DNA of 64,000 bases from Nesterenkonia muleiensis (GTDB lineage: Bacteria > Actinomycetota > Actinomycetes > Actinomycetales > Micrococcaceae), in the NCBI RefSeq assembly GCF_003600155.1, contig NZ_QWLD01000035.1, forward strand, positions 1 to 64,000, written 5' to 3'. Below, piece after piece: positions 24,480 to 56,066 of the stretch. The notes below the pieces were generated by a model that was not told the DNA's origin, searched no databases, and saw only the letters and a program-made list of their open reading frames with translations. The translations under genes were made by a program, and so were the position numbers. Numbering within the stretch: position 1 is the first letter of the stretch; the number at the start of each line of letters is the position of its first letter.

Positions 24480-24554
24480 ATCATGTGATGAGAGACACTC
24501 CAAGCTAGGATGCATAAAAACCCGCCCTTTGCCCCTCACTGATGCCCGGAGTGC

Positions 24555-25460: not shown

Positions 25461-25586
25461 ATGAATCCAAAGAATGGCTTGGACAGGCATCATTCGTCCC
25501 CTTTAGAGTGATGACGACCACGCGCGGCAGCGCGGAGACCCTCGCTGTGAACCGCAGTGATCAGACCCCATAGTCAGGATGCCCCG

Positions 25587-26540: not shown

Positions 26541-26579
26541 ATCTCTGAGCAGGCACCGACTATCACCAAGGAGCCGAAC

Positions 26580-28245: not shown

Positions 28246-28262
28246 ACACGCCTTAGGCGTGT
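28246..28262. terminator. Hairpin at the junction of convergent operons
   Basis: ACACGCC-TTA-GGCGTGT is a perfect 7-base stem with a 3-base loop. The loop contains the stop codon of the GH42 gene, and the galactarate operon ends just upstream at 28196. It can serve both strands. No strong T-tract follows. Confidence 0.5.
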
Positions 28263-30283: not shown

Positions 30284-31566
30284 CAGGGCGCCTCGAGCTC
30301 CTGCTCCATCTCTGCGACCATGCGTTCTGCCGCCTCTGCTGGGCTGAGGTCACCGAAGAATACCTGCAACTCGTAGCGCTGGAGAATCTCTTGCATCGCG
30401 GAGAAGCCCATGGCGGGCACCGGCTCAATGGGCTGGGCTGCGATCTCCGGTTCGATCTCTTCGATGAATTCTGAGGCTGTCAGGTCCGGACCTTCCAGCT
30501 GGTCGAACACGGCGTCGCGCACCTCGGGGTTGGAGGGCAGTCCGCGGTCAGTACCGTTGAGCAGCCCCGTCTCCTCTGAGTTGACCATGAAATCGATGAA
30601 CTGCTGGGCCTCTTCGGGGTGTTCGGTCTGCGAGCTGACCGACAACAACATGGTGGATTTGTACCACATGCCGTTCTCCTCGGCGCTGCCTGAATGAGAT
30701 GGCATACGAAGCGGAACGGTCTCAGTTCCCGATGCCCCGGAGATCGCCGGCAGCTGGTTGGTCCACCACATGCCCATGGCGACCTCGTTAGAACCGGTCA
30801 TCGATTCATCCGGACCCGGCGTCTGATCCTCGGCAATCACCGACGCGGACGGGTATCCGCCTGATTCCATCAGGTGATATAGATGCTCGAGGTATTCCTC
30901 GGCGTCACGGACCTCAAAACCCAGTTCGCTGTCCTGGGTGGTGAGGTGCTTGCCTTGCTGACGCAGCCAAATCTGTAGATCGGCCGGGGCGGCGGGTCCG
31001 GTCGCGCCATAAACCCCCTCCACATCGTCACTGATCTGAGTAGTGATCTCCCGGTAGTCCTCCCAGGTCCAGGTGGTGTCGTCGGGCAGTTCGAGGCCGG
31101 CTTCTTCGAAAATGTCCGGGTTGGCCATCATCACCATCGCGTTGACACCGGTGGTGATGCCCACCAGTCCCTCATTCTCGGTGCGGCCATTCTCCACTGA
31201 CTCCTCGTCCAGAGCTGAGACATCGACGTCGGTGAGTTCCAGCAGCGCCCCGCGCTGAGAATATTCGCGGAGATAATTGTCATCCATCTGAATGATGTCC
31301 GGCGGGGTGCCGCCGGCGGTCTGGGTGGCCAGCTGGTCCCAGTAACTGTCCCAGTCGCTGTAGGAGGGCTCGATGGTGATGCCGGGGTTCTCCTCCTCGA
31401 AGAGCTCGATGATCTCCTCTGTGGCCTGATGCCGAGTGTCGGAGCCCCACCAGGTGAAGCTCAGCGTCACCTGGCCATCGTCGGCATCTGCTCCTCCACA
31501 GGCGGACAGTGCCAAAGCGCCGACACAGGTGAATGCCACCATCGAGATAAATCGTTTCAATTTCAT
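30283..31566 (-). CDS. ABC sugar-binding lipoprotein 1
   Basis: I chose the ATG at 31566 (427 residues), which begins a clean lipoprotein signal with lipobox LSAC. The track upstream lacks signal-like sequence. It belongs to the family 1 extracellular solute-binding proteins: a LSFTWWGSDTRHQAT start, WDSYWDQLATQ, IIQMDDNYLREY, and the mid-domain WYKSTMLLSVSSQTEHPEEAQQFIDF. It is a close paralogue of the proteins at 35420, 39719 and 41014. It is translationally coupled to GH42. No permease or ATPase is adjacent, so it probably docks with the permeases at 52.7-54.6 kb. A GTTTAGGC sequence without a ribosome site precedes the ATG, so it may be leaderless. Confidence 0.88.
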   Translation of the reverse strand: MKLKRFISMVAFTCVGALALSACGGADADDGQVTLSFTWWGSDTRHQATEEIIELFEEENPGITIEPSYSDWDSYWDQLATQTAGGTPPDIIQMDDNYLREYSQRGALLELTDVDVSALDEESVENGRTENEGLVGITTGVNAMVMMANPDIFEEAGLELPDDTTWTWEDYREITTQISDDVEGVYGATGPAAPADLQIWLRQQGKHLTTQDSELGFEVRDAEEYLEHLYHLMESGGYPSASVIAEDQTPGPDESMTGSNEVAMGMWWTNQLPAISGASGTETVPLRMPSHSGSAEENGMWYKSTMLLSVSSQTEHPEEAQQFIDFMVNSEETGLLNGTDRGLPSNPEVRDAVFDQLEGPDLTASEFIEEIEPEIAAQPIEPVPAMGFSAMQEILQRYELQVFFGDLSPAEAAERMVAEMEQELEAP

Positions 31567-31574
31567 GCCTAAAC

Positions 31575-31588
31575 GGTAAGCGCATTCC
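31575..31588. promoter_or_regulatory. LacI-type operator before the GH42 operon
   Basis: GGTAAGCGCATTCC is a 14-base imperfect palindrome centred on CG (10 of 14 positions symmetric). On the minus strand a TTGACA (31600-31595 region) precedes it, so it covers the likely -10. It matches the sites at 43777-43790 and 54658-54671. Confidence 0.55.
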
Positions 31589-31703
31589 GGCACACGTGTC
31601 AAGAATCACACCTACTGACATTCGGCGGGGGCATTGCAGAGCTCGCACAGGCCCAGATCACCGGCAACACAGTCACACAGGGCTCGCACTGCGGTAAATC
31701 AGC

Positions 31704-42697: not shown

Positions 42698-43708
42698 TCA
42701 GCTCAGCCGCGTGCTCTGACGCAGAACAACGGCTCCCTCCACCACCACACGGTGGCTGGCGTCGCTGTTACCAAGCATCATTTCCACACTCATCCGGCCG
42801 ATCTCTTCCAGTGGAAGCCTCACAGTGGAAATGGTGGGGTACTGATCCGCCAGCGTAGGGATGTCGTCGAATCCGGCCAGCGCCACGTCCTCCGGAACAC
42901 TAAGCCCGGCTTCACGCAGGGCCGCCAACGCGCCCAAAGCCATGACATCATTGACACAGAACACGCAGAGCTTCCGCTCCTCGCCGCTCACACCTGAGGC
43001 CAGCAGGTCGACCATCATCCGGTAGCCGCCTTCACGAGTAAAAGCGCCCTGGCTCACCACCTCAGGCATCACGCCTGCGCTCTTGAGCGTGGCCAGGAAT
43101 CCCGCAGCCCGTTGAGAGGCGGTCTGCAACTCGGGCTCCCCCGAGAGCACAGCGAACCGGCGGTGACCGAGTCTCAACAGTTCATCGGCCAGAGCCGCGG
43201 CACTACCTTCGTTGTCGATCTGCACCCCGCCCGCACTGGCCAGGGGCTGACCGATCATGGCCACCCGCCCACCGTTGCCCCGATAGGCCTGCAGGAGCCT
43301 CTCCAAGAGGACGTCGTCGCCGAATCCCCTGGACCCAGCAAGGAGTATGGCGTCTGTCCTATATGACATGAACGAGCGGACCGCCTCCACTTCAGCCTCC
43401 GCGGCTCGCTCTGTCGAGGCCAGCATGAGCTGAATACCCGAGCCGGCCAATCCGCGCTGTGCACCGCGAGCGATGGAGGAGAAGTAGGGGTCGGCGATAT
43501 CATGAACCACTAGACCGATCAGTCGCGCACTGGCGCGCACCAGCGCCTGGGCTTGGGCATTGGGAACGTATCCCAGACGTTCCGCAGCGGCGCGCACCTT
43601 GTCTGCCACCTCTGGCGCGGGACGCCGGTTCGAGCCGTTGAGCACACGGGAGGCCGTCGCCTGAGAGACCCCCGCAGCCTCGGCCACCTCTGCCAGCCTG
43701 ACAGCCAT
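42698..43708 (-). CDS. LacI-family transcriptional regulator
   Basis: The ATG at 43708 has a strong ribosome site (GGAGGTG) and gives 336 residues. The helix-turn-helix is at the N-terminus (VRLAEVAEAAGVSQATASRVLNGSNRR is the region), followed by the hinge GYVPNAQAQALVR and a ligand-binding domain (LIGLVVHDIADPYFSSIA; FCVNDVMALGALAALREAG; AGFDDIPTLADQYP). It is divergent from the 43815 operon, and a LacI-type palindrome lies in the shared gap. The same palindrome type occurs before the GH42 and permease operons, so it may govern all three. Confidence 0.88.
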   Translation of the reverse strand: MAVRLAEVAEAAGVSQATASRVLNGSNRRPAPEVADKVRAAAERLGYVPNAQAQALVRASARLIGLVVHDIADPYFSSIARGAQRGLAGSGIQLMLASTERAAEAEVEAVRSFMSYRTDAILLAGSRGFGDDVLLERLLQAYRGNGGRVAMIGQPLASAGGVQIDNEGSAAALADELLRLGHRRFAVLSGEPELQTASQRAAGFLATLKSAGVMPEVVSQGAFTREGGYRMMVDLLASGVSGEERKLCVFCVNDVMALGALAALREAGLSVPEDVALAGFDDIPTLADQYPTISTVRLPLEEIGRMSVEMMLGNSDASHRVVVEGAVVLRQSTRLS

Positions 43709-43814: not shown

Positions 43815-44981
43815 ATGTCTGAGTCCCGCACTCTGCGCATCGCCATGAACGGCATCACCGGCCGCATGGGATACCGCCAACACCTGCTGCGCTCCATTCT
43901 TCCCATCCGTGACCAGGGAGGCATCACCCTTCCCGACGGGTCCAAGGTCACCGTGGAGCCAGTGCTCATCGGCCGCAACGAGGCCAAGATCAAGGAACTC
44001 GCAGCCAAGCACGACGTCGAGCACTACACCACTGATCTGGAAGGTCAGCTCAATGATCCGGGAATCGACATCGTCTTCGACGCCTCCATGACCTCCCTGC
44101 GCTACCAGACCCTCTCCAAGGCGATCGCCTCAGGAAAGCACGTCTTCACCGAGAAGCCCACTGCTGAAACCCTGCAGGAGGCCGTTGACCTTGCACGTCA
44201 GGCCAAGAACGTCGGGATCACCGCCGGAGTAGTCCATGACAAGCTCTATCTTCCCGGCCTGGTCAAGCTGCGCCGCCTAGTGGACGAAGGCTTCTTCGGG
44301 CGCATCCTCTCGCTGCGCGGCGAGTTCGGCTACTGGGTCTTCGAGGGCGAGGTCCAGCCGGCCCAACGCCCCTCCTGGAACTACCGCCTCGCCGACGGCG
44401 GCTCTATGACCACGGATATGTACTGCCACTGGAACTATGTCCTGGAAGGCATCATCGGCAAGGTCAAAACCGTGACCTCCCGGACCGCCACCCACATCCC
44501 GAAGCGCTGGGATGAGAATGGCAAGCCCTATGCTGCCGACGCCGATGACGCCGCATACGGCATCTTTGACCTGGAGACCCCCGAGGGTGACGATGTCGTG
44601 GCTCAGATCAACTCCTCCTGGGCGGTGCGCGTCTACCGCGACGAGCTGGTCGAGTTCCAGATTGACGGGACCCACGGCTCCGCGGTGGCCGGACTGAACA
44701 AGTGTGTGGCTCAGCAGCGCGCCCACACACCTAAGCCGGTGTGGAACCCGGACCTTCCGGTCACCGAGTCCTTCCGCGATCAGTGGAGCGAGGTGCCGGC
44801 CAACGCTGAGCTGGACAACGGGTTCAAGCTGCAGTGGGAGGAGTTCCTCGCCGACGTCGTCGCCGGGCGTGAGCACCGGTTCGGGCTGCTCTCCGCCGCA
44901 CGCGGTGTGCAGCTGGCCGAACTCGGCCTGCAGTCGGCCGCCGAGCGCCGCACCCTAGATATCCCCGAAATCACCCTCTAG
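43815..44981 (+). CDS. Gfo/Idh/MocA-family NAD(P) oxidoreductase
   Basis: Encodes 388 residues. The N-terminal Rossmann domain uses GITGRMG (about 13-19) for the dinucleotide, and the family EKP motif is present (VFTEKPTAE, about 113-121). The C-terminal alpha/beta domain carries the conserved WNYRLADGGSMTTDMYCHW stretch, with a histidine in the position that usually serves catalysis. Such enzymes oxidise hydroxyls of sugars, inositols or glycosides. First gene of a five-gene operon whose members match oxidative breakdown of a sugar. It is distinct from the two other Gfo/Idh proteins here (47139, 51260). Confidence 0.88.
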   Translation: MSESRTLRIAMNGITGRMGYRQHLLRSILPIRDQGGITLPDGSKVTVEPVLIGRNEAKIKELAAKHDVEHYTTDLEGQLNDPGIDIVFDASMTSLRYQTLSKAIASGKHVFTEKPTAETLQEAVDLARQAKNVGITAGVVHDKLYLPGLVKLRRLVDEGFFGRILSLRGEFGYWVFEGEVQPAQRPSWNYRLADGGSMTTDMYCHWNYVLEGIIGKVKTVTSRTATHIPKRWDENGKPYAADADDAAYGIFDLETPEGDDVVAQINSSWAVRVYRDELVEFQIDGTHGSAVAGLNKCVAQQRAHTPKPVWNPDLPVTESFRDQWSEVPANAELDNGFKLQWEEFLADVVAGREHRFGLLSAARGVQLAELGLQSAAERRTLDIPEITL

Positions 44982-44992
44982 AGAGGCCGCCG

Positions 44993-46231
44993 ATGTCATC
45001 CTCACTCACTGTGACGCTGCCGACCCTCTCCGGGGGCAGCATTGACTACACCCTGCAGGGTCAGACCAACCCTGACCTGGGTGAATTCACCCGTCCCGGT
45101 GCGCCCATCACCTCCCGGAAGGTCTACGCCGCCGCGCATGTAGTCCCGGTGATGAACGCCGACAACACCCCGGGGGCTCCGGCTGAGCTGGATTGGGTGG
45201 CCACCTTGGCCTACCGGCATGAACTGTGGTCCTACGGGCTCGGTGTGGCCGACGCCATGGACACCGCCCAGCGCGGGATGGGTCTTGACTATGCGGCCAC
45301 CAAAGCGCTGATCCGCCGTTCCGCCGCCGAGGCCGAGCGAGTCCTCACAGAGCAGACCTACCCCGCCCTGGCTGGGCGTACCGTCCGGGATCTCATCGCC
45401 TGCGGCGCGGGCACAGACCAGGTGGACCCCGCCGCGGTGGCTCCCGGTGACACTGGCCTGCAGACGGTGCGCAACGCCTACCTGGAGCAGCTGGAGGTGG
45501 TGGAGTCCTCCGGTGCGAAGGTGATTCTCATGGCCTCCCGCGCCCTCGCCAAGGTGGCTCAGGATCCCGCGGACTACCTCGCCATCTACTCGGAGTTGCT
45601 GCAGACTGCTCAGCAGCCGGTGATCCTGCACTGGCTGGGCCCCATGTTCGACCCTGCTCTGGCAGGTTACTGGGGCTCCGACGACGTTGCGGCAGCCACG
45701 GAGACCTTCCTGCAGCTGATCCGGGAGAATGCGGAGAAGGTCGACGGCGTGAAGGTCTCTCTGCTGGATGCCGATCATGAGAAGCAACTGCGAGCGCAGC
45801 TGCCTGAGGAAGTGCGCCTCTACACCGGTGACGATTTCAACTACCCAGAGCTGATCCACGGTGACGAGTCGGTCTATTCCGACGCGTTGCTGGGCATCTT
45901 CGCCGCCATCTATCCCGCAGCCTCGACTGCCCTGCAGGCCTACGACGCCGGCGATGCCGACCGTGCACGGGCGATCCTGGACTCCACCCGTGAATTGGGC
46001 AAGCACATCTTCGCCGCGCCCACTCTGTACTACAAGACCGGGATTGCGTTCCTCTCCTGGCTCAACGGTCACCAGAGGGGGTTCCAACTGGTGGGCGGGC
46101 TCCACGCTGGGCGTTCGCTGCCGCATCTGGCCCACACTTTGGTGCTGGCCGACCAGGCCGGCCTATTGGCCAAACCTGAGTTGGCGGCAGAACGGATGCG
46201 TCTGCTGCTGAAGAGCGGAGGGCTGAGATGA
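44993..46231 (+). CDS. DUF993 family protein (dihydrodipicolinate synthase-like)
   Basis: Encodes 412 residues. I recognise it as DUF993, a distant relative of the DapA-type TIM-barrel lyases, from KVYAAAHVVPVMNADN, DWVATLAYRHELWSYGLGVADAMDTAQRGMGL (in parts), and LHWLGPMFDPALAGYWG. Its Schiff-base lysine is probably in the VDGVKVSLLD segment, by analogy with DapA proteins. The biochemical role is unproven. In this operon, 11 bases after an oxidoreductase and 4 bases overlapping a TIM-barrel isomerase, a retro-aldol or dehydratase step on an oxidised sugar is the simplest idea. Confidence 0.82.
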   Translation: MSSSLTVTLPTLSGGSIDYTLQGQTNPDLGEFTRPGAPITSRKVYAAAHVVPVMNADNTPGAPAELDWVATLAYRHELWSYGLGVADAMDTAQRGMGLDYAATKALIRRSAAEAERVLTEQTYPALAGRTVRDLIACGAGTDQVDPAAVAPGDTGLQTVRNAYLEQLEVVESSGAKVILMASRALAKVAQDPADYLAIYSELLQTAQQPVILHWLGPMFDPALAGYWGSDDVAAATETFLQLIRENAEKVDGVKVSLLDADHEKQLRAQLPEEVRLYTGDDFNYPELIHGDESVYSDALLGIFAAIYPAASTALQAYDAGDADRARAILDSTRELGKHIFAAPTLYYKTGIAFLSWLNGHQRGFQLVGGLHAGRSLPHLAHTLVLADQAGLLAKPELAAERMRLLLKSGGLR

Positions 46232-47139
46232 CCCATCCGGGCAGCCGCGCGGACCGGTTCGCGCTCTCCTTGAACACCGGCACCACCCCGCACCTTTCGC
46301 TGCAGGAAGCATGCGCTGCCACGACCCAGGCCGGGCTGGACCACATCGGCCCGTGGCGGCACCTACTGGAGCAGGCCGGTGGGGCCGAGGCCTCCCGCAC
46401 CATCCTTGCTGATCACGGCCTGACCGCCACCACGCTCTGCCGAGGCGGTTTCCTCACAGTCTCTGGACAGCAGCCCCGGTCCGAGGCCCTGGAATCCAAT
46501 CGGGCGGCCATCCGGGAGGCGGCCACCATTGGCACCAAAGAACTGATCATGGTGGTCGGAGGCCTTCCAGCTGCGGCTCACCTGCTGGGCGGCAGCTCCC
46601 ATGGCGGCTCCACGAAGGACAAGGACGTCGTCGCTGCCCGCCAGAGGGTTGCCGAAGGCATCGCTGAGTTGCAGCCCTACGCCGCCGAACATGATGTCCG
46701 TCTGGTGCTGGAGCCCCTGCATCCGATGTATGCGGCGGACCGTGCAGTGCTCTCCACCCTGGGTGAGGCTCTAGATCTGGCCGCACCGTTCTCTTCGGAG
46801 ACCGTGGGCGTGGTGGTCGACACCTTCCACGTGTGGTGGGATCCGCAGTTGAAGGCGCAGATCGAACGCGCCGGGCGCGAGCACCGGATCGCCAGCTATC
46901 AGGTCTGTGACTTCAACCTGCCGATCGCCGCCGACGCCCTGAAGTCCCGGGGCATGATGGGCGATGGCTATGTGGACTTCCCCACCATCAGCCAGTGGGT
47001 CGCCCAGGCGGGCTATACCGGCCCGGTCGAGGTGGAGATCTTCAATGAGCAGATCAACTCCCAGGATGCCTCGGTCACTCTACAGACCATGACGGCCCGG
47101 TACGAAGATCTGGTTCTTCCCTTCCTCAAAGGAGAGTAA
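46228..47139 (+). CDS. Sugar phosphate isomerase/epimerase-like TIM-barrel protein
   Basis: Encodes 303 residues of the xylose-isomerase-like AP endonuclease 2 superfamily. Metal-ligand segments are present: LVLEPLHPM with its glutamate, VVVDTFHVWWDP with the Asp-His pair, and VEVEIFNEQI with the terminal glutamate. Such proteins include isomerases, epimerases, dehydratases and the deglycosidases of 3-keto glycosides. It overlaps the DUF993 gene (ATGA) and the fusion gene (TAATG), so it is tightly coupled to both. Confidence 0.85.
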   Translation: MTHPGSRADRFALSLNTGTTPHLSLQEACAATTQAGLDHIGPWRHLLEQAGGAEASRTILADHGLTATTLCRGGFLTVSGQQPRSEALESNRAAIREAATIGTKELIMVVGGLPAAAHLLGGSSHGGSTKDKDVVAARQRVAEGIAELQPYAAEHDVRLVLEPLHPMYAADRAVLSTLGEALDLAAPFSSETVGVVVDTFHVWWDPQLKAQIERAGREHRIASYQVCDFNLPIAADALKSRGMMGDGYVDFPTISQWVAQAGYTGPVEVEIFNEQINSQDASVTLQTMTARYEDLVLPFLKGE

Positions 47140-49199
47140 TGGCATTCACCGCTGCGGCCGCGCCCGTCCGCACCCCTGAGGTGATACTGATCGGGCTGGA
47201 CGGCTTCGGCCGCCAGCATCTGCGTAACATTGCACGCCTGACCGCATTGCAGAAGGTTAGGTTGATCGCCGGTGTCGGCTTCTCCGATCCTGGCCCAGAG
47301 GTCAGAGGTGAGATCCCGGTCTACCGCACCCTCGCTGAGGCTTGCGGCGCAGGCCACCGTCCGGACATCATCATCGTCTCCACCCCCATCAACACACATT
47401 TCGACTTGGCCATCGAAGCACTACGTATGGGCGCTGACGTGCTGGTAGAAAAGCCTCCCACCGCCACCCTTGAGCAGTTCCAGAGGTTGCTGACCGTGGC
47501 GGAGAATTGCGGACGACATGTGCAGGTGGGCTTCCAGTCGATCGGCTCCCACACCCTGCCCGCGATCGAGCAGCTACTGTCATCCGGTGAGATCGGTCAA
47601 CTGCGTGCTGTAGGCGCCACGGGACTGTGGCTGCGGACCGAGTCCTACTACGCCCGTGCACCGTGGGCCGGGCGGCGCACCCTTGAAGGTGTACAGGTGG
47701 TGGACGGAGTGGTCACTAATCCGCTGGCCCATGCGGTGAAGACCGCCCTGCACATCGCCGGGGCCAAACACTTAAGTGATGTGGCTGACCTGCACACCGA
47801 GCTCCACCATGCGCACCGCATCGAAGCAGACGACACGTCGATCGTCCAGCTGCGCACCACTGCAGGCATCCCGGTCACTGCCGCGCTGACTTTGTGCGCA
47901 GCCGAACAGCAGGACCCGTGGATCACGATCTCCGGCACCGAGGGGGAGGCGATCCTGTATTACACCCGGGACGAGTTGGTCATCACCCCTAATCCGCAGC
48001 GACCGGGTGCGACGGAGGCGCAGTCCCTGACCTTCCAGCGCACCGATCTGCTGGAGAACCTGATCGAGGTACAAGCCGGGCTCACCAGCAGGCTGCTCTC
48101 CCCCTTGGAAGACCACGGGGCATTCATGGCCGTATTGGAAAGTGTGCGCACTGCGCCGAAACCGGCCGCCATAGGTGCCGAGCATCTGCTTTACGGCGGA
48201 AAAGGCACCGAACGTCACCCCATCATCCCCCACGTGGAGAATTATCTTGCCCGTGCGGTCAAGGCAGCACCGTCCTCGTTCTCCTCACTTGGTGCCCCTT
48301 GGGCGGCCGAGCCGTCCACCAGCGGTAGCCTGAGCGCCGGAACCGGTGCGCGCACCGCGATGGTGGCCCAGCTGCGCACCGGTGAGGACATCTCCCCCAC
48401 CGATTCGCCCCGCCCCTTCTTGGATGCGGTGACCACCTTGGGCGGCGTCGTGGTCACTGATCAGCAACCGCTGGATCATACCTGGCACCTTGGCGTGGGC
48501 ACCGCACTGCAGGATGTCAACGGCCACAACTTCTGGGGTGGACGGACCTACACCCGTGACGCCGGGCGCTACGTCTGGCGCGGCGACCACGGCCGTATCA
48601 CTACCGTGTCGCAGAGCATCAGCGACCACGCTCATGGCCAGCAGCTGAACCAACAGCTGGACTGGAATGCCGCTGACGGCGCTGCGATCCTCACCGAGAA
48701 GCGCACCGTGAGCACCTACTCAGTCTCACCGGAGCACTGGACGCTCAGCTACAGCTATGAACTCACCCCCGCAGGTAGGGAGCCGGTGAGCCTGGGTAGC
48801 CCAGGAGCCAATGGTCGAGAAGAGGGCGGCTACGGCGGATTCTTCTGGCGGCTGCCGATGCTAGAGGACGCCTCCATCTTCACCGCCGAAGCCGAGGGTG
48901 AGGAGGAGGCCCACGGCAGCATGACGGAATGGTTGGCGATCACCGGCCACTACGCGCCACTGCCCAGCCGTTACGGAAGCAGCGGGCCAGCCACTCTGCT
49001 ACTGAAACGCCAGGAAGGGAACCCTGATCCGTGGTTCGTGCGCCACCGCTCCTATCCCGGCGTGGGTATGTCCCTAGCCTGGGAACAGCCGGTGGTGCTG
49101 CAACCAGGTGAGACCGCAGCCCGGCAAGTGCAGGTGCTGGTGGTCGATGGAGTCCTCACACCCCAGCATGCCGCTGAGCTGATAGGAACCAGCCTGTGA
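47139..49199 (+). CDS. Fused Gfo/Idh oxidoreductase and PmoA-like (DUF6807) protein
   Basis: Encodes 686 residues in two parts. Residues about 10-365 are a Gfo/Idh/MocA oxidoreductase: the dinucleotide loop GLDGFGRQH, the PDIIIVSTPINTHFDLA strand and the VEKPP motif are visible, with the C-terminal sheet (VVDGVVTNPLAHAVKTALH). Residues about 400-686 match the PmoA-like DUF6807 family: DQQPLDHTWHLGVGTA, VNGHNFWGGRTYT and YGGFFWRLP, a beta-sandwich related to aldose-epimerase folds. The two domains are separate proteins in many bacteria. Fusion suggests they act in succession on the same sugar. It overlaps both neighbours. Confidence 0.82.
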   Translation: MAFTAAAAPVRTPEVILIGLDGFGRQHLRNIARLTALQKVRLIAGVGFSDPGPEVRGEIPVYRTLAEACGAGHRPDIIIVSTPINTHFDLAIEALRMGADVLVEKPPTATLEQFQRLLTVAENCGRHVQVGFQSIGSHTLPAIEQLLSSGEIGQLRAVGATGLWLRTESYYARAPWAGRRTLEGVQVVDGVVTNPLAHAVKTALHIAGAKHLSDVADLHTELHHAHRIEADDTSIVQLRTTAGIPVTAALTLCAAEQQDPWITISGTEGEAILYYTRDELVITPNPQRPGATEAQSLTFQRTDLLENLIEVQAGLTSRLLSPLEDHGAFMAVLESVRTAPKPAAIGAEHLLYGGKGTERHPIIPHVENYLARAVKAAPSSFSSLGAPWAAEPSTSGSLSAGTGARTAMVAQLRTGEDISPTDSPRPFLDAVTTLGGVVVTDQQPLDHTWHLGVGTALQDVNGHNFWGGRTYTRDAGRYVWRGDHGRITTVSQSISDHAHGQQLNQQLDWNAADGAAILTEKRTVSTYSVSPEHWTLSYSYELTPAGREPVSLGSPGANGREEGGYGGFFWRLPMLEDASIFTAEAEGEEEAHGSMTEWLAITGHYAPLPSRYGSSGPATLLLKRQEGNPDPWFVRHRSYPGVGMSLAWEQPVVLQPGETAARQVQVLVVDGVLTPQHAAELIGTSL

Positions 49200-50341
49200 G
49201 CAGCACCCAGGCGACCCACAGTGGCCTCGCTGTGACAGAGGAGTTCGCGCAGAAGCATCAAAGGCTTATCCGTGTGCTGGACCAGACCGGCGCAGACGGC
49301 GTAGTCCTCTCCTCCGCCGGAGCGCTGTCCTGGCTATTAGGTGGAGCCCGGGTCCATGTCAGCCTCACCGGCCCCCCTGTTGTCCGCGCGGTGGCCCACC
49401 GTGACGGAGTCGAACTGGCAGTGTTCTCCAATGAATCCGAGCGTTTGCAGACCGAGGAAGTCAGTGCTCTGCTGGAGGCCTCCAGACTGCGCATTCGCCA
49501 GCTGGCCTGGCACCAGAACATCGACGACACCGGCTCCTGGCTGGCTGCTCCGCCGACCCAGCTGGTGGACGAAAGCACCGCCGCACTGCCACTGCGGGCT
49601 GCGCGGGCACCGCTGCTGGGGCCCGAGTTGAGCCGCTACCGTTCACTATGCCGCGATGCCGCAGCTGCTCTTACCGCCGTGTGGGGATCGGTCACACCAC
49701 AGACCACCGAACGCGAGGCCTGCTCCGCTCTGGGCCGGGAACTGATCAGTGCGGGGGCTGATCCGCTCGTCGTCCTGGCCGCCGGCGACTCCCGAGCACG
49801 GCACCGGCACCCGCTGCCCACCAACGCGCCTTTGGGACGCCGGGCCATGGCTGTGGTCTGCGCACGCCGCGATGGGCTGATCGCCAATGTCACCCGTTGG
49901 GTGTGTTTTAGTGATCCGGCTCCAGGAGAGCTTGAACTGGACCGCGCGATTCTGGAAGTAGAAGCGGATATCTTCGATGCTCTTATTCCAGGGACAGAGC
50001 TGGCCTCGGTGCTGGAGGTGGTCAAGGGCGCCTACCCACGGCATGGATTCGATGTCCACGAATGGACACGGCACCACCAGGGTGGTGCCGCCGGCTATCA
50101 AGGCCGCGACCCGCGGGCCGCCCCCGGCGTGCCGGACCTCATCCACCCTCAGCAGGCGTTCGCATGGAACCCCTCCGCTTTCAGCGAGCAGCTGGCAACT
50201 GGTGCCAAGGCGGAGGACACCGTAGTGCTGTCCGCTGAAGCCCATGGCGGAGAGGAATTCATCGAGATCCTCAGCGCAGATCCCTCATGGCCAAGCGCTT
50301 CCGTGCGGGGCCGGCAGCGTCCCCTTCCGCTCTACCGCTGA
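49196..50341 (+). CDS. M24 (creatinase/aminopeptidase-fold) protein lacking most metal ligands
   Basis: Starts with GTG in a GTGA overlap and encodes 381 residues. Residues about 15-140 resemble the creatinase N-terminal domain and 150-370 the pita-bread fold. Comparison with aminopeptidase P segments shows the two aspartate ligands replaced (Val220 and Asn231 in GLIANVTRWV) and the first glutamate replaced (Asn325 in AWNPSAF). A histidine pair (His293-His294 in HHQGGAAGY) and the last glutamate (KAEDTVVLS) remain. It is therefore unlikely to be a dinuclear metallopeptidase. Creatinase itself is a metal-free hydrolase in the same fold, so catalysis is possible. Its place at the end of a sugar operon suggests a non-peptide substrate. 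Confidence 0.75.
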   Translation: MSSTQATHSGLAVTEEFAQKHQRLIRVLDQTGADGVVLSSAGALSWLLGGARVHVSLTGPPVVRAVAHRDGVELAVFSNESERLQTEEVSALLEASRLRIRQLAWHQNIDDTGSWLAAPPTQLVDESTAALPLRAARAPLLGPELSRYRSLCRDAAAALTAVWGSVTPQTTEREACSALGRELISAGADPLVVLAAGDSRARHRHPLPTNAPLGRRAMAVVCARRDGLIANVTRWVCFSDPAPGELELDRAILEVEADIFDALIPGTELASVLEVVKGAYPRHGFDVHEWTRHHQGGAAGYQGRDPRAAPGVPDLIHPQQAFAWNPSAFSEQLATGAKAEDTVVLSAEAHGGEEFIEILSADPSWPSASVRGRQRPLPLYR

Positions 50342-50369: not shown

Positions 50370-51263
50370 CTATTCCACCAGTTCGGTCCGCCAGGACCGC
50401 TTCGGCTCCCAGCCCAGCACGTCCTTGGCCTTCTGCACCGAGAATGCCGGGGAGTCTCCGGTGAGCCCTTCGGCGAGGTGGCTCAGCTCGGGAAAGTACT
50501 CCGGGATCAGTTCGGACAACGGCTTCCTAGCCAGCGCGTCCTTCGCGCCGACGAAGAACACCGCACCATTACTCACCTGATCGCTACTGGCCAAGGCGGT
50601 GAGGAGGAAATCGGTCACGTCCCTGGCATCGACGTAGTTGAACAGCGCGACTGCAGAGAGTTCGGGACGGTCCAGGCGTTCAACCAATGTATGTCCCTGC
50701 TGCGTGGGACCGCCCTGCCATTCCTCCGGGGCGATGACGTAACACGGGCGGAAGCTAATGAACTTAACCCTTGAGGTCTGCTGGGCGAACATGGCCGCGA
50801 CCTGTTCAGCCGCATATTTGCTTAGCCCGTAGGCGTGCCAAGGATATGGTGTAACGTTCTCGTCCAAGGGCAGGCGGGGAGGAACCCACTCCACCGGGGA
50901 GCCGTAGCCCATGATAGAGGGACTGGAGGCGATGATGACGGTACGAGCCCCGGCAGCCACAGCTGCTGCCGTCACATTATGGGCTATCCCGACGTTGGTC
51001 TTTAGAATCACGTCCTCCGGGGCGGAGAATGGGACTGCTATGGCTGCCAGTGAGACAACGGAGTCCGGTCCGACCTCGGCGAACAGTTCCGCGGTGGCGA
51101 CTGCGTCGAGGAGGTCCGCCGCACGGTAGTCCACTCCTGACACCGGTGTCTCCGGCAACGTGCGGTCCATGCTGATCACCTGGTGACCTGCCGCAGAGAA
51201 TCCATCGACCACGCTACGGCCTAGACGCCCGGAACCGCCAGTGATGATCACCCGGTCGCTCAC
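50370..51263 (-). CDS. NAD-dependent epimerase/dehydratase-family (extended SDR) protein
   Basis: Encodes 297 residues. The extended-SDR nucleotide motif is ITGGSGRLG (about 7-15) and the catalytic Tyr-Lys pair is in YGLSKYAAEQ, with the serine in IASSPSIMGYG. The family includes UDP-glucose 4-epimerases, uronate dehydrogenases and sugar reductases. The short length and the terminal RSWR segment favour a monosaccharide or sugar-nucleotide reductase over GalE proper. It is the last gene of a minus-strand operon with the Gfo/Idh gene (4-base overlap) and the two permeases, and it converges on the M24-like gene. Confidence 0.83.
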   Translation of the reverse strand: MSDRVIITGGSGRLGRSVVDGFSAAGHQVISMDRTLPETPVSGVDYRAADLLDAVATAELFAEVGPDSVVSLAAIAVPFSAPEDVILKTNVGIAHNVTAAAVAAGARTVIIASSPSIMGYGSPVEWVPPRLPLDENVTPYPWHAYGLSKYAAEQVAAMFAQQTSRVKFISFRPCYVIAPEEWQGGPTQQGHTLVERLDRPELSAVALFNYVDARDVTDFLLTALASSDQVSNGAVFFVGAKDALARKPLSELIPEYFPELSHLAEGLTGDSPAFSVQKAKDVLGWEPKRSWRTELVE

Positions 51264-52633
51264 GCGCTAACCTCTGTGCGCAGCTGAGCACTAGACGAGG
51301 CAGACTCGAGGCCAAGATCTATCTCTTCAAGAATCACCGGAACCCCGTTGGTCAGGGACTCGTTACCCGCCACGCCCACGGCGATCGCGTGGATGCCGTC
51401 CACCAGACCAGCGGGACGGCGGTACGGGTCCTCACCGGCACCTTTGAAGATGTCTGCTAGTAGCAACTTGTCACCACCGCCGTGGGAACCTTCCCCATTG
51501 ATGATCTCGATCTCTTCGGCCTGTTCCCAGTGCTGTTGGAGAATCAAGCGTTCGCCCTTGGCCCTGAGCCGGTTGGACTGGCCGTCATCGCTGACGGAGG
51601 GGTCAACGGGGGACCCACCTTCCGCTGGAAGCACTGCGGCGCGCTCGACCACTTCCAATTCCAGCCGGCCCAAGGTCCCGTTAACAGCTACCCTGTAGCC
51701 CTCCCATGGGGAGTGGGCGTTGAGTGAGTAATTCAGTACCGCGCCGCGGGAGTAGTTCACGATCACCGCGAGGTTGTCCTCGATGGTGATACCCGGTGAG
51801 AAGACGTCCTGATCACGCCTGTATCCGTCGAAGTGCTCATTGTCCAGATACAGGCGTTTGAGCTTGTCGTCGGTGCGCAGATCCAAGGCGAAGGGATCCT
51901 CTTCCGATCCCTCACGAGTTCCGCGCTCCGCGGGAGTGATCCCGCGAGCCGAGGCGGCCTCCTCACCGTAGAACTTCAGCCCGCCGGAGGCGTAGATTTT
52001 CTCGGGGGTGTCGGCCAACCACCAGTTGACCAGATCGAAGTGATGGCTGGCCTTATGAATCAGCAGCCCGCCGGAGTTGTCCTTGATCCGGTGCCACCGA
52101 CGGAAATAATCCGCGCCGTGGACGGTGTCCAGCACCCAGGTAAAGTCAATGGAGGTGACCTCGCCGACCTTTCCCTCCTGGATCGCAGCCTTCAGTGCGG
52201 TATTACGCGGGGAGTACCGATAGTTGAAGGTCACGATCACTTCACGTCCGGTCTGTTCCACGGCCTCTGCGATGCGAGTGCTGGAAGACCCATTCACCGT
52301 CAGCGGCTTCTCCACCACCACGTCCGCTCCCGCATGGAGAGATTCTACAATCAGGTCGGCGTGAGTGTAGTCAGGAGTGGTGATAATGACCCTGTCCACC
52401 CGTTCCCGCTGAATGAAGTCAGCCAGCTTACGGGGGTCGAACACGGTGACATCAACATCATGCTGGTCCCGCACCCGCTGGGCGTAATATTCCACTCGCC
52501 CGGGATTGGTGTCCGCCAGTGCCACGAGCTCCGCCACATCGAAGTGGGTCTGCACGATGGCATCGATGTACATCGAGCACCGATTTCCCATCCCCAGTAT
52601 CGCGTACCTCGTTCTCGCCGTATTGTCACTCAT
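51260..52633 (-). CDS. Gfo/Idh/MocA-family oxidoreductase
   Basis: Encodes 457 residues, longer than the typical 340-390 because of extra C-terminal sequence. The Rossmann loop is ILGMGNRCSMY, the EKP motif is VVEKPLTVN (about 104-112), and IHKASHHFDLVNWWL provides the histidine-rich active-site helix. It is of the larger Gfo/Idh type that often acts on glycosides or uronates. It lies 24 bases downstream of the permease gene and is coupled to the SDR gene, so it probably oxidises or reduces the sugar those permeases import. Confidence 0.87.
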   Translation of the reverse strand: MSDNTARTRYAILGMGNRCSMYIDAIVQTHFDVAELVALADTNPGRVEYYAQRVRDQHDVDVTVFDPRKLADFIQRERVDRVIITTPDYTHADLIVESLHAGADVVVEKPLTVNGSSSTRIAEAVEQTGREVIVTFNYRYSPRNTALKAAIQEGKVGEVTSIDFTWVLDTVHGADYFRRWHRIKDNSGGLLIHKASHHFDLVNWWLADTPEKIYASGGLKFYGEEAASARGITPAERGTREGSEEDPFALDLRTDDKLKRLYLDNEHFDGYRRDQDVFSPGITIEDNLAVIVNYSRGAVLNYSLNAHSPWEGYRVAVNGTLGRLELEVVERAAVLPAEGGSPVDPSVSDDGQSNRLRAKGERLILQQHWEQAEEIEIINGEGSHGGGDKLLLADIFKGAGEDPYRRPAGLVDGIHAIAVGVAGNESLTNGVPVILEEIDLGLESASSSAQLRTEVSA

Positions 52634-52657: not shown

Positions 52658-53644
52658 CTATTTAATACCGGTGGTGGCCATGCCCTTGATGAGGTAGCGC
52701 TGGCCGAACAGGAAGATGAGGAACAGGGGTATGACCGAGACGATCGACATGGCGAACATCGCACCCCAGTTGGACTGGCCGGTAGAGTCAATGAACGCGG
52801 CAAGCGCCAGTGGGACGGTATACATGTCCGGGCTGGTGAGGAAGATCAGCTGGCTGAACAGGTCATTCCACGTCCACATGAAGGTGAAGATGGTGGTGGT
52901 GGCCAGGGCCGGCACCATCAGCGGGAGCACCACTTGAAGGAAGATCCGGATATGACCGGCGCCGTCGATTCGTGCCGCTTCGTCCAAGTCCTTGGGGATG
53001 CCTCGGACGAACTGCACCATCAGGAAGATGAAGAAGGCATCGGTGGCCAATATCTTCGGAACGATCAGCGGTAAGAAGGTGTTGATCCATCCGAAGTTGG
53101 AAAACAGGATGTACTGCGGGATGATCACCACGTGCACCGGCAGCATGATGGTCAGCAGCATCATGGCAAACATTGGCACCTTGAACTTGAAGTCCAGCCG
53201 TGCGAAGGCGTAGGCAGCCATGGAACAGGCCACCAGATTTGCCAGGATCGAACCAAAGACCACGATCGCGGAATTGGTTAAAAAGTGACTGAAGGGGTGG
53301 CTCAGCGCGTTCCACCCACTGATGTAGTTTTCGAACTCCAAGGTGGTGAGCAGCAGGCCGGATTCCCGGAAGATGACCTCATTGGGCCGCAGCGAGGAGA
53401 CCAGCATCCACAGCAGCGGGTAGATCATGGCGAAGGAAGCGGCCACTAGCACAATGTGCTTGAGGGATGATTTGACCGCCTTGCCCACAGGCGTGCTTTG
53501 CTTCATCGCCTTCGGGCGGTTCGCCCCCAGGTCAGTGGGATCGTTGACCGGAACGGTGGCTCGGGGATGCCCAGCAGCTTGTCCGCGGGAGACTGCCGCC
53601 AGCGCGTTGTCGGGCTCGTGTCGGGTCCGCAGTGAATCAGTCAT
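52658..53644 (-). CDS. Carbohydrate ABC transporter permease (MalG type)
   Basis: Encodes 328 residues. After a long polar N-terminal tail (about 1-60) it has six membrane spans. The conserved cytoplasmic EAA loop is EAARIDGAGHIRIFLQVVLP, where an ATPase would dock. It overlaps the MalF-type gene by 8 bases. No ATPase gene is present anywhere in the window. The family imports oligosaccharides or sugar derivatives. Confidence 0.92.
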   Translation of the reverse strand: MTDSLRTRHEPDNALAAVSRGQAAGHPRATVPVNDPTDLGANRPKAMKQSTPVGKAVKSSLKHIVLVAASFAMIYPLLWMLVSSLRPNEVIFRESGLLLTTLEFENYISGWNALSHPFSHFLTNSAIVVFGSILANLVACSMAAYAFARLDFKFKVPMFAMMLLTIMLPVHVVIIPQYILFSNFGWINTFLPLIVPKILATDAFFIFLMVQFVRGIPKDLDEAARIDGAGHIRIFLQVVLPLMVPALATTTIFTFMWTWNDLFSQLIFLTSPDMYTVPLALAAFIDSTGQSNWGAMFAMSIVSVIPLFLIFLFGQRYLIKGMATTGIK

Positions 53645-54566
53645 CGTAGTGCACCCAATACTTAGCGAGGAAGAAGTTGATTGCGGTCAGTGAGGCGATG
53701 ATGAGCACCAGCAGCCATGCCATGGCTGCCGCATAGCCCATATCGAACCTCGCGAAACCCTGCTGATAGAGATACAGGGTGTAGAAGAGCGTTGAATCCG
53801 CCGGCCCTCCGGAGCCTCCGGAGACCACGAAGGCCTGGGTGAAGTTCTGGAAGGCGTTAATCAGCTGCATCACCAGGTTGAAGAAGATGATCGGAGTCAG
53901 CAGCGGGATGGTGATGGTGATGAACTGCTTGATCCGGGTTGCTCCGTCAATGGAGGCGGCCTCGTAGTACATGTCCGGGATCTGACGAAGACCGGCTAGG
54001 AAGATCACCATGGGGGCACCGAAAGTCCACACGTGGAGGATGATCAGCGTGCCCAGTGCGGTGTCCGGAGAGGAGACCCAGCCCTGTCCCTCGATGCCGA
54101 CCATGGCCAGCAGTTGGTTCACCAGGCCGGAGTGACCGAAGATTTGGCGCCAGAGCACCGCGATCGCGACCGAAGACCCGAGCATGGAAGGCAGGTAGAA
54201 CACCGAGCGGTAGAAGGCCAGCCCTCTCATGCCGCGGTCCAGTAGCAGTGCCACGGCCAGGGAGACCGCTAGCTGGAGTGGCACGCCCACAAAGACATAG
54301 GTGAAGGTCACTTGGAGCGAATTGTGGAGGCGCTCATCCCCGATCATGCGGGTAATATTGTCCAAGCCGGTCCATGTGGGGGCCTGCAGGAGATTGTAGT
54401 TGGTAAACGCCAGGTAGAGGGTCGCCAGCATAGGGAAGAGCGTGATGGCGAACAAACCCAGGGTCCATGGCGACAGGAACAAGTGCCCGGCCAGGTTGTC
54501 CTTGTGCTTCCGCTTGCCTTGTCCGCGCCCCTTCTTCAGGCGGCTGAGTTCTGCGACCACACTCAT
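53637..54566 (-). CDS. Carbohydrate ABC transporter permease (MalF/UgpA type)
   Basis: I chose the ATG at 54566, near a GGGGGG-rich ribosome site, giving 309 residues. Longer in-frame starts would run into the promoter. Six membrane spans and the EAA-type loop (YEAASIDGATRIKQF) identify the partner of the MalG-type protein. It heads the permease-Gfo/Idh-SDR operon, downstream of a LacI-type operator. Its binding protein is not adjacent. Four candidates lie at 30-42 kb. Confidence 0.92.
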   Translation of the reverse strand: MSVVAELSRLKKGRGQGKRKHKDNLAGHLFLSPWTLGLFAITLFPMLATLYLAFTNYNLLQAPTWTGLDNITRMIGDERLHNSLQVTFTYVFVGVPLQLAVSLAVALLLDRGMRGLAFYRSVFYLPSMLGSSVAIAVLWRQIFGHSGLVNQLLAMVGIEGQGWVSSPDTALGTLIILHVWTFGAPMVIFLAGLRQIPDMYYEAASIDGATRIKQFITITIPLLTPIIFFNLVMQLINAFQNFTQAFVVSGGSGGPADSTLFYTLYLYQQGFARFDMGYAAAMAWLLVLIIASLTAINFFLAKYWVHYDD

Positions 54567-54657
54567 GTGGTTACCCCCCTGCCACCGCGACGTCTTGGCG
54601 GGCGCAACCAGAGGGCGTATGCATATGGGACAGCATGGCTGCCTCCTCACAACTGGG

Positions 54658-54671
54658 GGAAATCGCTTTCC
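54658..54671. promoter_or_regulatory. LacI-type operator before the permease operon
   Basis: GGAAATCGCTTTCC is a 14-base palindrome centred on CG with one mismatched pair. It follows the predicted promoter at 54689-54717 on the minus strand. It belongs to the same class as 31575-31588 and 43777-43790. Confidence 0.6.
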
Positions 54672-54688
54672 GGTGAACTGTGAGGCAA

Positions 54689-54717
54689 CTGTAAGCACCA
54701 TCACATTAGAGGGTCAA
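54689..54717 (-). promoter_or_regulatory. Predicted promoter of the permease operon
   Basis: On the minus strand TTGACC (54717-54712) and TTACAG (54694-54689) are separated by 17 bases. The LacI-type palindrome at 54658 sits at about +10 to +25, consistent with repression. Confidence 0.45.
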
Positions 54718-54914: not shown

Positions 54915-56066
54915 ATGCTCAGCCCACACCCCGTTGTCGCTCGAGTAGAACTGCTGCTGACCTCCATGCCGTTCTCTGCGGAACGCCGTCTCACGTCTGA
55001 TGAGAGCATTGATGAGTACAACGCGTCATCGCAGAGTTTCACCCACATGGAATCGTTAATGGTGAAGGTCCATGATTCTCAGGGCCGAGTCGGATGGGGT
55101 GAGGCCTTCGGCCACAGGAGCAATCCGGCCTCATGGGCTGCATTAGAAAGTACGGTGGGGCCCTTTGCCCTCGGCCGTAATACTGATCCCACGGCTTTTC
55201 GCCGTGAAGCCGAATACGCCTTCCATGCCTTCGGCCGTACCGGCCCAGTGCATTTTGCCCTCTCAGCTATGGACACCGCTCTGTGGGATCTTGCCGCTCA
55301 GGCACAAGGAAAACCATTGCGCCGGCTGATCGCCGAGGAACTGGAGACGGGGGCCGCTGACCGGATCAGCTGTTACGCATCACTGGTGCACTACGGCGAG
55401 GAACCTCAGGAAGTGGCTCATCACATCTGTCGCGCCCAGCAATCCGGCTTTGGATCGTTCAAGCTCCATGAGTCAACTCCGGAAGCTGTGGGCGCTGCGC
55501 GCCTACAGGCCGGGCCAGATGCCGCCCTCATGACTGACGTGAACTGCCACTGGGACGAGGCCGGCGCTGCACAGGCGCTCGAAGAATTCCTACCCTATGA
55601 TCTGCACTGGCTGGAGGAGCCTGTCTTCCCGCCCGATGACAGCTCTGCTCTGGTACGCCTCAATGTCTCATCCGGACGGATCGCCGCCGGGGAGAATGCA
55701 TCTGGCACGCTAGGCATGATCCACCAGATCGAATCCGGCGCAGTAAGCTTCGCTCAGCCCAGTGTCGGCAAAATCGGCGGAATTTCGGCGATGCTCGAAG
55801 TCATCCGGACAGCCCGGGCCCTCGACGTGCCCGTAGTGCCCCATTGCTTCTACTACGGACCGGCGCTGAACGCCTCCGCGGAGATCGTGGCGGCTCTAGG
55901 TCCGGAGGTGCAGTTGGAGGCCCCGTTCCTGACATGGCCTCAACGTCTGCACCAGCTACACGGCCCAGCCCCGGTCATCAAACTCAGTGATGGTCCCGGG
56001 CTGAACTTCGTAACCGACGAGATGGTGCTTGCCGAACACCTTGTCCGCAGCGCAACCATCGGCTGA
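54915..56066 (+). CDS. Enolase-superfamily (mandelate racemase / MLE-like) enzyme
   Basis: Encodes 383 residues. The capping domain and barrel are clear: metal ligands Asp208 and Asn210 (TDVNCHW), Glu234/235 (WLEEPV) and Glu260 (AGENAS). The second-strand motif reads Lys183-Leu-His185 rather than the usual KxK, the sixth strand has Lys286 (VGKIGG) with Ser283 where mandelate-racemase types have the dyad aspartate, and His310 (VVPHCFYYG) is on the seventh strand. The mixture leaves the reaction (dehydration or epimerisation) open. A rhamnose-type operator upstream hints at a deoxy-sugar acid such as rhamnonate, but rhamnonate dehydratase itself looks different. Confidence 0.8.
   Translation: MLSPHPVVARVELLLTSMPFSAERRLTSDESIDEYNASSQSFTHMESLMVKVHDSQGRVGWGEAFGHRSNPASWAALESTVGPFALGRNTDPTAFRREAEYAFHAFGRTGPVHFALSAMDTALWDLAAQAQGKPLRRLIAEELETGAADRISCYASLVHYGEEPQEVAHHICRAQQSGFGSFKLHESTPEAVGAARLQAGPDAALMTDVNCHWDEAGAAQALEEFLPYDLHWLEEPVFPPDDSSALVRLNVSSGRIAAGENASGTLGMIHQIESGAVSFAQPSVGKIGGISAMLEVIRTARALDVPVVPHCFYYGPALNASAEIVAALGPEVQLEAPFLTWPQRLHQLHGPAPVIKLSDGPGLNFVTDEMVLAEHLVRSATIG

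Follow-up and report, generated by a model that had tools for sequence, protein, structure and literature searches.

A putatively LacI-controlled operon of Nesterenkonia muleiensis joins two gene modules and may lead a pectin-derived sugar acid to glycerate

Introduction

Five genes of Nesterenkonia muleiensis, at positions 43815-50341 of a 64,000-nucleotide stretch of contig NZ_QWLD01000035.1 (the window), encode a Gfo/Idh/MocA dehydrogenase (GFO1), a DUF993 protein, an AP_endonuc_2-type barrel (TIM), a second Gfo/Idh dehydrogenase fused to DUF6807 (GFO2-DUF6807) and a protein resembling M24 peptidases (M24-like). Do they act in succession on one substrate, and if so, on which? A reading made from the sequence alone had taken them for an undescribed oxidative sugar or glycoside pathway. 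Judged by the distribution of its genes, the operon is instead a composite of two kits mostly found apart and probably held here under one repressor. We tentatively favor, at slightly less than even confidence, a regulated, non-phosphorylated route from a pectin-derived sugar acid, probably pectic and of rhamnogalacturonan type, to glycerate. The joint claim of this architecture, this end product and a link to pectin seems to us evenly balanced.

Results

The operon is part of a putative LacI regulon

All five open reading frames are intact, lack internal stops and lie on the + strand. A gap of 11 bases is followed by overlaps of 4, 1 and 4 bases, which confirms the tandem operon with spacing of at most 11 bases that had been described. 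Pfam also bore out the gene families named earlier, except that the domain called PmoA-like is Pfam DUF6807, with a predicted galactose-mutarotase-type fold. Upstream of GFO1, which was inspected by eye only, no -35/-10 pair with normal spacing was seen. The five genes do form a unit, as had been proposed, and the relevant unit is larger, a putative LacI regulon.

The candidate operator, GGAAAGCGYWTTCC, is exact in 53 of 119 distinct regions upstream of GFO1 and has one mismatch in 12, two in 10, and three or more in 44. Mononucleotide shuffles of these regions gave no sequence with at most one mismatch in 595, and three with two. The operator was found in 30 of 30 genomes chosen for carrying GFO1-DUF993-TIM (the core), at one or two places each, versus 2 of 30 for a reversed control pattern. 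In the N. muleiensis genome (3.68 Mb), three sites come within one mismatch of the operator, all of them inside the window, where shuffles gave a mean of 0.05 and at most 1. The site at 43777 faces the five-gene operon; that at 54658 faces genes for an ABC importer, a third Gfo/Idh dehydrogenase and an SDR protein (ABC-GFO3-SDR) and, in the opposite direction, an enolase-superfamily gene (ENO); and that at 31575 faces genes for an ABC solute-binding protein (SBP) and a GH42 protein. These units would form one LacI regulon with putative operators. The available portions of PMC4052901 contain no match to it. Operator-like sites with two mismatches at 17814, 39478, 55211 and 24899 lie inside predicted coding frames.

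The same arrangement recurs elsewhere (loci are numbered L and genomes G). The operator between the ABC and enolase genes is found in L003, L004, L147, L168 and L169, and L146 has an operator before the ABC genes, where its sequence stretch ends. In two related genomes, G275 and G295, operators precede the core operon, ABC-GFO3-SDR/ENO-glycerate kinase, and a PL11 gene for a rhamnogalacturonan lyase-esterase. One-mismatch operators in L123 and L124 lie upstream of a gene about 1750 codons long, 44 and 43 bases from its start codon. Its product has a signal-peptide-like N terminus and PL11 lyase and GDSL esterase domains (Pfam on L123); the codon-model caller starts PL11 genes too late, and the signal-peptide starts come from the reading frame upstream. 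In G033 (L165) the core and an M24-GFO2 module lie apart, each with operator sites. A second operator in L025 (Mycolicibacterium) faces three importer genes encoding a permease, an NMT1-type binding protein and an ATPase; L021 (Nocardia) has three genes in matching positions, followed by a PF02595 kinase.

Two modules that are usually found separately

The genome loci used to examine gene order were the 80 best-scoring of 587 confirmed DUF993 candidates, and the sample is therefore biased toward close relatives of the same type. In 77 of the 79 loci with DUF993 called, this gene is flanked immediately by GFO1 (upstream) and TIM (downstream), all three on one strand, an arrangement shared by 20 of 21 further genome loci. 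Sixteen plasmid loci were fetched; DUF993 was called in 14, and five of these have both neighbors directly adjacent. L002 and L155 are apparently one locus (same contig), so the locus sets overlap. The codon-model caller missed DUF993 in L004, L109 and L115 and M24 in L003, L004 and L150, where the M24 genes were placed by tblastn.

The core occurs in many Actinomycetota, some Proteobacteria and one Chloroflexota genome, with hosts including Micrococcaceae, Streptomyces, Nocardia, Mycolicibacterium and Thermosporothrix, the last presumably the member of the Chloroflexota. Plasmid carriers of DUF993 include Rhizobium, Sinorhizobium, Paracoccus, Erwinia and pAO1. Within the genus, DUF993 is present in 15 of 29 other genomes examined and the five-gene form in 8 of those 15; DUF993 of Nesterenkonia halophila (L002) is 77% identical to that of the window. 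Four others of the 15 (L143, L144, L149 and L151) have a glycerate kinase behind the core, and the remaining three carry a diverged core with 50-53% DUF993 identity, one of them truncated by a contig edge.

Thirteen further distinct loci show the five-gene form: L002 (=L155), L003, L004, L010, L123, L124, L145-L148, L150, L154 and L161. At least 98.5% of sequences keep K114, D201 and H205 of GFO1 (111 sequences) and E162, D198, D228 and E268 of TIM (112 sequences). The sequence-only reading, which depended on a gene order shared beyond this strain and on unbroken active sites, held on both points. Chance adjacency of the five genes is ruled out by the conserved order together with the operator, and degenerate active sites by residue conservation in GFO1, DUF993, TIM and the M24-like protein.

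Among the 13 five-gene loci, GFO1 is much better conserved (median 89%) than DUF993 and TIM (77%), GFO2 (63%) or M24 (58%). In L102, L103 and L161 (genome G009), both DUF993 and M24 are broken into a pair of reading frames, and this copy of the operon may be decaying or wrongly sequenced. A gene for a 142-residue universal-stress-protein-type protein follows M24 or TIM in loci of the genus (L002, L144-L147, L149, L151, L154 and L155); tblastn found no copy in the window.

The second module was followed through its M24-like gene. Of 297 genomes in the order, 24 carry it, at 25 places, the N. muleiensis genome included (E<=1e-40). Neighborhoods were fetched for 20 of the 24 places outside this genome; neighbor labels are best BLAST matches, some below 35% identity, and so denote any relative of the labeled family. 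An SDR lies in 18 of the 20 regions, an enolase-superfamily protein in 16, GFO3 in 15, and GFO2, DUF6807 or both in 14. Three regions have the core and 17 lack it. Among 79 further neighbors, out of 80 listed, DHDPS-family proteins account for 13 and aldehyde dehydrogenases for 12; the DHDPS protein of L126, the sole one tested further, scores 401 bits against a cut-off of 278 for the subfamily of 5-dehydro-4-deoxyglucarate dehydratases and belongs to it. Distant M24 relatives also lie amid sugar genes on plasmids, in three of 37 records with a match: Thermus pVV8 (xylAB-M24-Gfo/Idh-SDR), a Halostagnicola plasmid (with xylose dehydrogenase, arabinofuranosidase and pectate lyase) and a Pantoea plasmid (GMC-M24-SDR).

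Since the modules mostly occur apart, the operon is not one ancient five-step pathway. The proposal of several consecutive steps on one substrate survives insofar as sugar redox enzymes with conserved order and active-site residues stand under one repressor, in a regulon with sugar importers.

DUF993 has a DHDPS-type fold with a lysine at the Schiff-base position

An AlphaFold (AF2) model of DUF993, built from 35 sequences (pLDDT 92.3), has the (beta/alpha)8 fold of DHDPS type. It matches 4dnh (SMc04132) with a Z score of 55.4 and, among the matches listed, DHDPS proteins with Z 28.4-29.5 and an rmsd of 2.4-2.6 A over about 285 residues. K254 sits on the predicted sixth strand (250-256), at the Schiff-base position of the DHDPS/N-acetylneuraminate lyase superfamily. 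In searches of the PDB with the family profile, K254 aligned with the lysine of GiKeatgD in 6p90 and 3qze (E 0.06 and 0.075, weak alone), and the DHDPS matches as a whole (E 0.06 to 0.18) are insignificant by themselves. K254, D280, D281 and several arginines are conserved at a level of at least 98.5% in 118 sequences. The likeness to the superfamily is thus one of fold and of the strand-6 lysine, whereas DUF993 is about 110 residues longer, is 11-19% identical and, judged by strand order, appears to have other residues at strands 2 and 5. Comparison with the KdgD of the window by hhalign gave a probability of 0.2% and nothing useful. The DHDPS fold with a lysine at this position points to C-C cleavage as the predicted activity of DUF993.

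The family has a solved relative (4dnh) and spans several phyla, yet the openly licensed literature yields no paper naming it and no printed activity; searches there with PF06187, 4DNH, 3OQB, 3JU2, 3QC0 and 7VPF found nothing relevant. A table of PhaR-related expression in PMC12542648 lists SMc04132 and SMc04133.

GFO2-DUF6807 and the M24-like protein

The DUF6807 model, from 8 sequences (pLDDT 84.5), is a supersandwich with Z scores of 14-16 over 192-240 residues to mutarotases, N-domains of GH36, PL26 and others. The domain is predicted to belong to the galactose-mutarotase-like fold superfamily, and because of this fold we propose that it supplies an anomer to GFO2, which would be an aldose dehydrogenase. 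A PF14100 protein is noted in PMC5342196 beside an enolase-superfamily gene and new beta-galactosidases; no sugar-metabolism function is given for DUF6807/PF14100 in the available portions of PMC10971088 and PMC10291797.

M24 metallopeptidases bind their metals with D, D, H, E and E. In an alignment with 5giu, whose ligand roles we assume, the M24-like protein has V220, N231, G297, N325 and E340 at these positions, and only one of the five is kept. G297 and N325 are present in all 36 family members compared, and position 231 varies; these 36 sequences include single representatives of Thermus, a haloarchaeon and Pantoea, and L002 and L155 are the same locus. Because eleven residues are identical in 36 of 36 (H293, H294, Q295, G296, G297, R304, N325, P326, K338, E340 and T342), a decayed peptidase was ruled out. 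The protein is predicted to be metal-free, and the clade suggests that a peptidase fold moved into sugar oxidation. SMP-30 lactonase was not among the 25 commonest families near M24, with 44 rarer families outside that list, so that a lactone step would have room for another enzyme; that the M24-like protein fills it as a lactone hydrolase is a guess that we consider unlikely.

Glycerate kinase and the pAO1 cluster

Of the 111 DUF993 loci with a length of at least 9 kb, 16 have a glycerate kinase within the fetched stretch, in one case at a distance of 12 kb; 7 of the 16 plasmid loci are among them. None of 17 M24 loci without DUF993 has such a kinase. In L143, L144, L149 and L151 the kinase follows the core, in three of them after the universal-stress-protein-type gene; in L168 and L169 it comes directly after the enolase gene, downstream of the shared operator. 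The kinases near the core come from two Pfam families, PF02595 and DUF4147/MOFRL, without BLAST similarity to each other. Because two different families recur near the core, glycerate is the likely end product of the predicted pathway. The regulon, this link and the lysine together narrow the candidate substrates of DUF993 to a short list.

The sugar cluster of pAO1 from Paenarthrobacter nicotinovorans likewise has adjacent GFO1 (82% identity) and DUF993 (69%) with a sugar ABC importer. It differs in that no TIM, GFO2-DUF6807 or M24 is annotated in 19 kb, and in having a GMC oxidoreductase, an aldehyde dehydrogenase and a glycerate kinase. A Weimberg-type oxidative pathway has reportedly been proposed for the pAO1 xylose cluster by Mihasan and co-workers. 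Oxidation of a pentose or hexose by this type of route, with DUF993 as a 2-keto-3-deoxy acid dehydratase, is improbable as an account of the operon: the pAO1 GFO1-DUF993 pair does adjoin an aldehyde dehydrogenase annotated with D-xylose catabolism, and the second module has DHDPS-family proteins and aldehyde dehydrogenases near it, but the pAO1 glycerate kinase directly behind DUF993 is not needed in a Weimberg route, and the window has an ordinary KdgD too. The openly licensed literature gave nothing on topic for pAO1/xylose, Weimberg/Gfo/lactonase or BT2158.

A possible route from pectin, and its rivals

PL11 genes stand beside the five-gene operon in L002, L123, L124 and L154; the copies in L002 and L154 have no operator with at most one mismatch upstream in the stretch covered. 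No GH88/GH105 match (PF07470) was found in any of 19 genomes tested, among them the four whose operon adjoins PL11, of which G008 is just 65% complete; the model matched in three control genomes. A rhamnogalacturonan lyase gene with no GH105 match to go with it poses a concrete question for actinobacterial pectin breakdown.

In the favored route the enzymes would act as follows, in roles that we infer from gene order, operator sequence, folds and conserved residues. GFO1 would oxidize (or reduce) a sugar acid with NAD(P), TIM would isomerize or epimerize it at a metal site, and DUF993 would cleave it by way of a Schiff base formed with Lys254, yielding a C3 product at the level of hydroxypyruvate or glyceraldehyde, which would be converted to D-glycerate and then phosphorylated by glycerate kinase. 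The likeliest chemistry would run from an aldonate to a 2-ketoaldonate (GFO1), its C3 epimer (TIM), and hydroxypyruvate plus glyceraldehyde (DUF993), a scheme with perhaps little chance of being exact. Oxidation of an aldose or uronate would fall to the second module: GFO2, together with the mutarotase-like domain fused to it, would make a lactone, the predicted metal-free M24-like protein would open it, and the resulting acid would enter the enolase-superfamily, KdgD and aldehyde dehydrogenase steps. The most far-reaching version of this proposal is more speculative still: in bacteria that have a PL11 lyase with a signal peptide and no GH88/GH105 match, the regulon would break down rhamnogalacturonan-I fragments oxidatively and independently of GH105, DUF993 would represent a new class of Schiff-base lyase acting on non-pyruvate keto sugar acids, and the metal-free M24 protein would be a sugar-lactone hydrolase.

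The strongest rival, itself unlikely, starts from the unsaturated uronates (4-deoxy-5-ketouronate) that pectin lyases release, with TIM in place of KduI, GFO1 in place of KduD and DUF993 as a 2-keto-3-deoxygluconate aldolase yielding pyruvate and glyceraldehyde, the latter going on to glycerate. Such a route would suit the PL11 gene that shares this operator in G275 and G295, the lack of a GH88/GH105 match in the 19 genomes, the absence of a PF01081 aldolase match in the N. muleiensis genome, the glycerate kinase link and the DHDPS fold. However, the pyruvate-binding motif of DHDPS-type aldolases is, by strand order, not recognizable in DUF993, most core loci are without PL11 in the stretch covered, and PF04962 (KduI/IolB) is present in 10 of the 19 genomes, the N. 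muleiensis genome included. IolB, we assume, belongs to PF04962 with KduI; because of this shared family PF04962 does not discriminate, and KduI was rejected as a marker.

Slightly less probable is the oxidative deglycosylation with which the sequence-only reading had compared the operon, in which a Gfo/Idh enzyme oxidizes C3 of a glycoside, TIM eliminates or hydrates the 3-keto glycoside and another Gfo/Idh enzyme reduces the freed 3-keto sugar. The levoglucosan pathway (LgdA/LgdB1/LgdB2/LgdC) offers the parallel, with Gfo/Idh and AP_endonuc_2 enzymes of the same superfamilies in a sugar-importer cluster, as presented in the parts of PMC10066097 and PMC7676230 that cover it. One operator ties together three Gfo/Idh enzymes here, and the best match of GFO1, a weak one, is levoglucosan dehydrogenase. 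No component reaches the curated cut-offs of the known enzymes tested, however, and 3-keto-glycoside cleavage is for that reason not demonstrated. Against LgdA (NF052479, cut-off 650), GFO1, GFO3 and GFO2 score 67.9, 63.8 and 29.1 bits; against the glycoside/disaccharide 3-dehydrogenases (NF058561 and NF058563, 750 and 650) the best scores are 36.8 (GFO3) and 27.2 (GFO1), with GFO2 at 30.9 versus 750; against the inositol 2-dehydrogenase IolG (TIGR04380, 355) GFO3, GFO1 and GFO2 reach 97.9, 50.8 and 50.1; and against the 5-keto-L-gluconate epimerase IolO (NF041099, 300) TIM reaches 42.3. The scheme has no place for DUF993 or glycerate kinase, and the levoglucosan pathway as described lacks both, as well as an M24-like protein. 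The operator-linked NMT1-type importer of L025 would also be unexpected for glycosides.

Several observations weigh against the route to glycerate that we favor. PL11 lies beside only 4 of the 13 other five-gene loci and has no match in the N. muleiensis genome. A nearby glycerate kinase is lacking in 95 of the 111 DUF993 loci, and the PF02595 kinase of N. muleiensis itself is on another contig (C13), with no operator of at most one mismatch in the 12 kb examined. With 44 of 119 upstream regions at three or more mismatches, part of the core-bearing genomes use another operator or none. DUF993 has no Pfam DHDPS (PF00701) match at E<=0.001, the DUF993 family alone being found. Pyruvate aldolases have a GTTGE carboxylate-binding motif and a strand-5 Tyr. 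DUF993, with motifs placed by strand order, appears to have in their stead a conserved MDTAQR (M89-R94) at strand 2 and HW (H213-W214) at strand 5, which suggests imine chemistry on another substrate; the protein may perform other imine chemistry or none. Finally, some plasmids from Janthinobacterium, Paraburkholderia, Rhizobium, Octadecabacter, Sagittula and Paracoccus kondratievae carry DUF993 without GFO1. Its neighbors there are acyl-CoA dehydrogenase, CoA-transferase, ketoacyl reductase and enoyl-CoA hydratase in combinations that differ between loci, an acyl-CoA-type context that falls outside the favored model.

The DUF993 loci without GFO1 (L105, L108, L110, L113, L115, L117 and L119) mostly retain TIM, and 3-ketoacyl reductase and ETF are among the partners. 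In L112, L114 and L118, DUF993 adjoins proteins of 465-471 residues that are enolase-superfamily members by NCBI name; the two tested (L114:6306-7721 and L118:6335-7732) matched no Pfam family at the limits used.

Neighboring genes in the window

Table 1. Positions of the operon, the putative operators and other genes discussed.
Feature	Positions	Strand	Evidence
GFO1, Gfo/Idh/MocA dehydrogenase, family of PDB 3oqb	43815-44981	+	Pfam GFO_IDH_MocA and C-terminal domains
DUF993, DHDPS-fold protein, homologue of SMc04132 (PDB 4dnh), K254 at Schiff-base position	44993-46231	+	Pfam DUF993, 565 bits (cut-off 24)
TIM, AP_endonuc_2 isomerase/epimerase-type barrel, relatives 7vpf, 3qc0, 3ju2	46228-47139	+	Pfam, 111 bits
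GFO2-DUF6807, Gfo/Idh dehydrogenase fused to galactose-mutarotase-fold domain (predicted)	47139-49199	+	Pfam Gfo/Idh and DUF6807 (197 bits)
M24-like protein of pita-bread type, with one of five metal ligands kept	49196-50341	+	Pfam Peptidase_M24, 38 bits (cut-off 23)
LacI-family repressor gene, divergent from operon, start at 43708	42698-43708	-	Family profile match
Putative LacI-type operator GGAAAGCGTATTCC, 24 bases upstream of GFO1 start codon	43777-43790		Motif search
SDR, NAD-dependent epimerase/dehydratase family, last gene of ABC-GFO3-SDR unit	50370-51263	-	Pfam
GFO3, third Gfo/Idh/MocA dehydrogenase	51260-52633	-	Pfam
ABCp1, ABC importer permease	52658-53644	-	Pfam
ABCp2, ABC importer permease; codon-model start near 54560, downstream of operator	53637-54704	-	Pfam, codon model
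Putative operator GGAAATCGCTTTCC, 1 mismatch, between ABCp2 and enolase-superfamily gene	54658-54671		Motif search
ENO, MR_MLE acid-sugar dehydratase-like; counterpart in L168/L169 directly followed by glycerate kinase	54915-56066	+	Profile match
Putative operator GGTAAGCGCATTCC, 1 mismatch, upstream of SBP-GH42 unit	31575-31588		Motif search
ABC solute-binding protein, codon-model start 31470	30283-31602	-	Annotation, codon model
GH42 beta-galactosidase family protein	28253-30283	-	Annotation
L-talarate/galactarate dehydratase; possible functional partner	22645-23775	+	Curated profile, 672 bits (cut-off 500)
KdgD, 5-dehydro-4-deoxyglucarate dehydratase; possible functional partner	25557-26540	+	Curated profile, 378.6 bits (cut-off 373.95)
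Aldehyde dehydrogenase, best match 2,5-dioxovalerate dehydrogenase, far below cut-off; possible functional partner	26580-28196	+	NCBIfam

The oxidative galactarate/glucarate pathway (Weimberg-type: galactarate dehydratase, KdgD, 2,5-dioxovalerate dehydrogenase) is the known system nearest to the genes at 22645-28196, where the first two enzymes score above their cut-offs and an aldehyde dehydrogenase follows. DHDPS-family and aldehyde dehydrogenases also surround M24-like genes elsewhere, but the pathway gives the M24-like, DUF6807 and Gfo/Idh enzymes no assigned role. None of the three operator places of the window with at most one mismatch is at these genes.

Besides GH42, galactarate dehydratase and KdgD, the window has GH106 and, at 14412-22627, a RhaEW-type rhamnose cluster (FMN lactate dehydrogenase, FGGY kinase, aldolase-SDR fusion, isomerase and LacI). 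The isomerase, kinase, fusion and lactate dehydrogenase, at 14412-20517, correspond to those in the portion of PMC3870299 describing the RhaEW cluster; with no operator of at most one mismatch in that interval, the cluster is a neighbor only. The other end of the island (5843-7069 and 7219-12554) has a peroxidase of Dyp type and a pair of large ATPase regulators of LuxR type.

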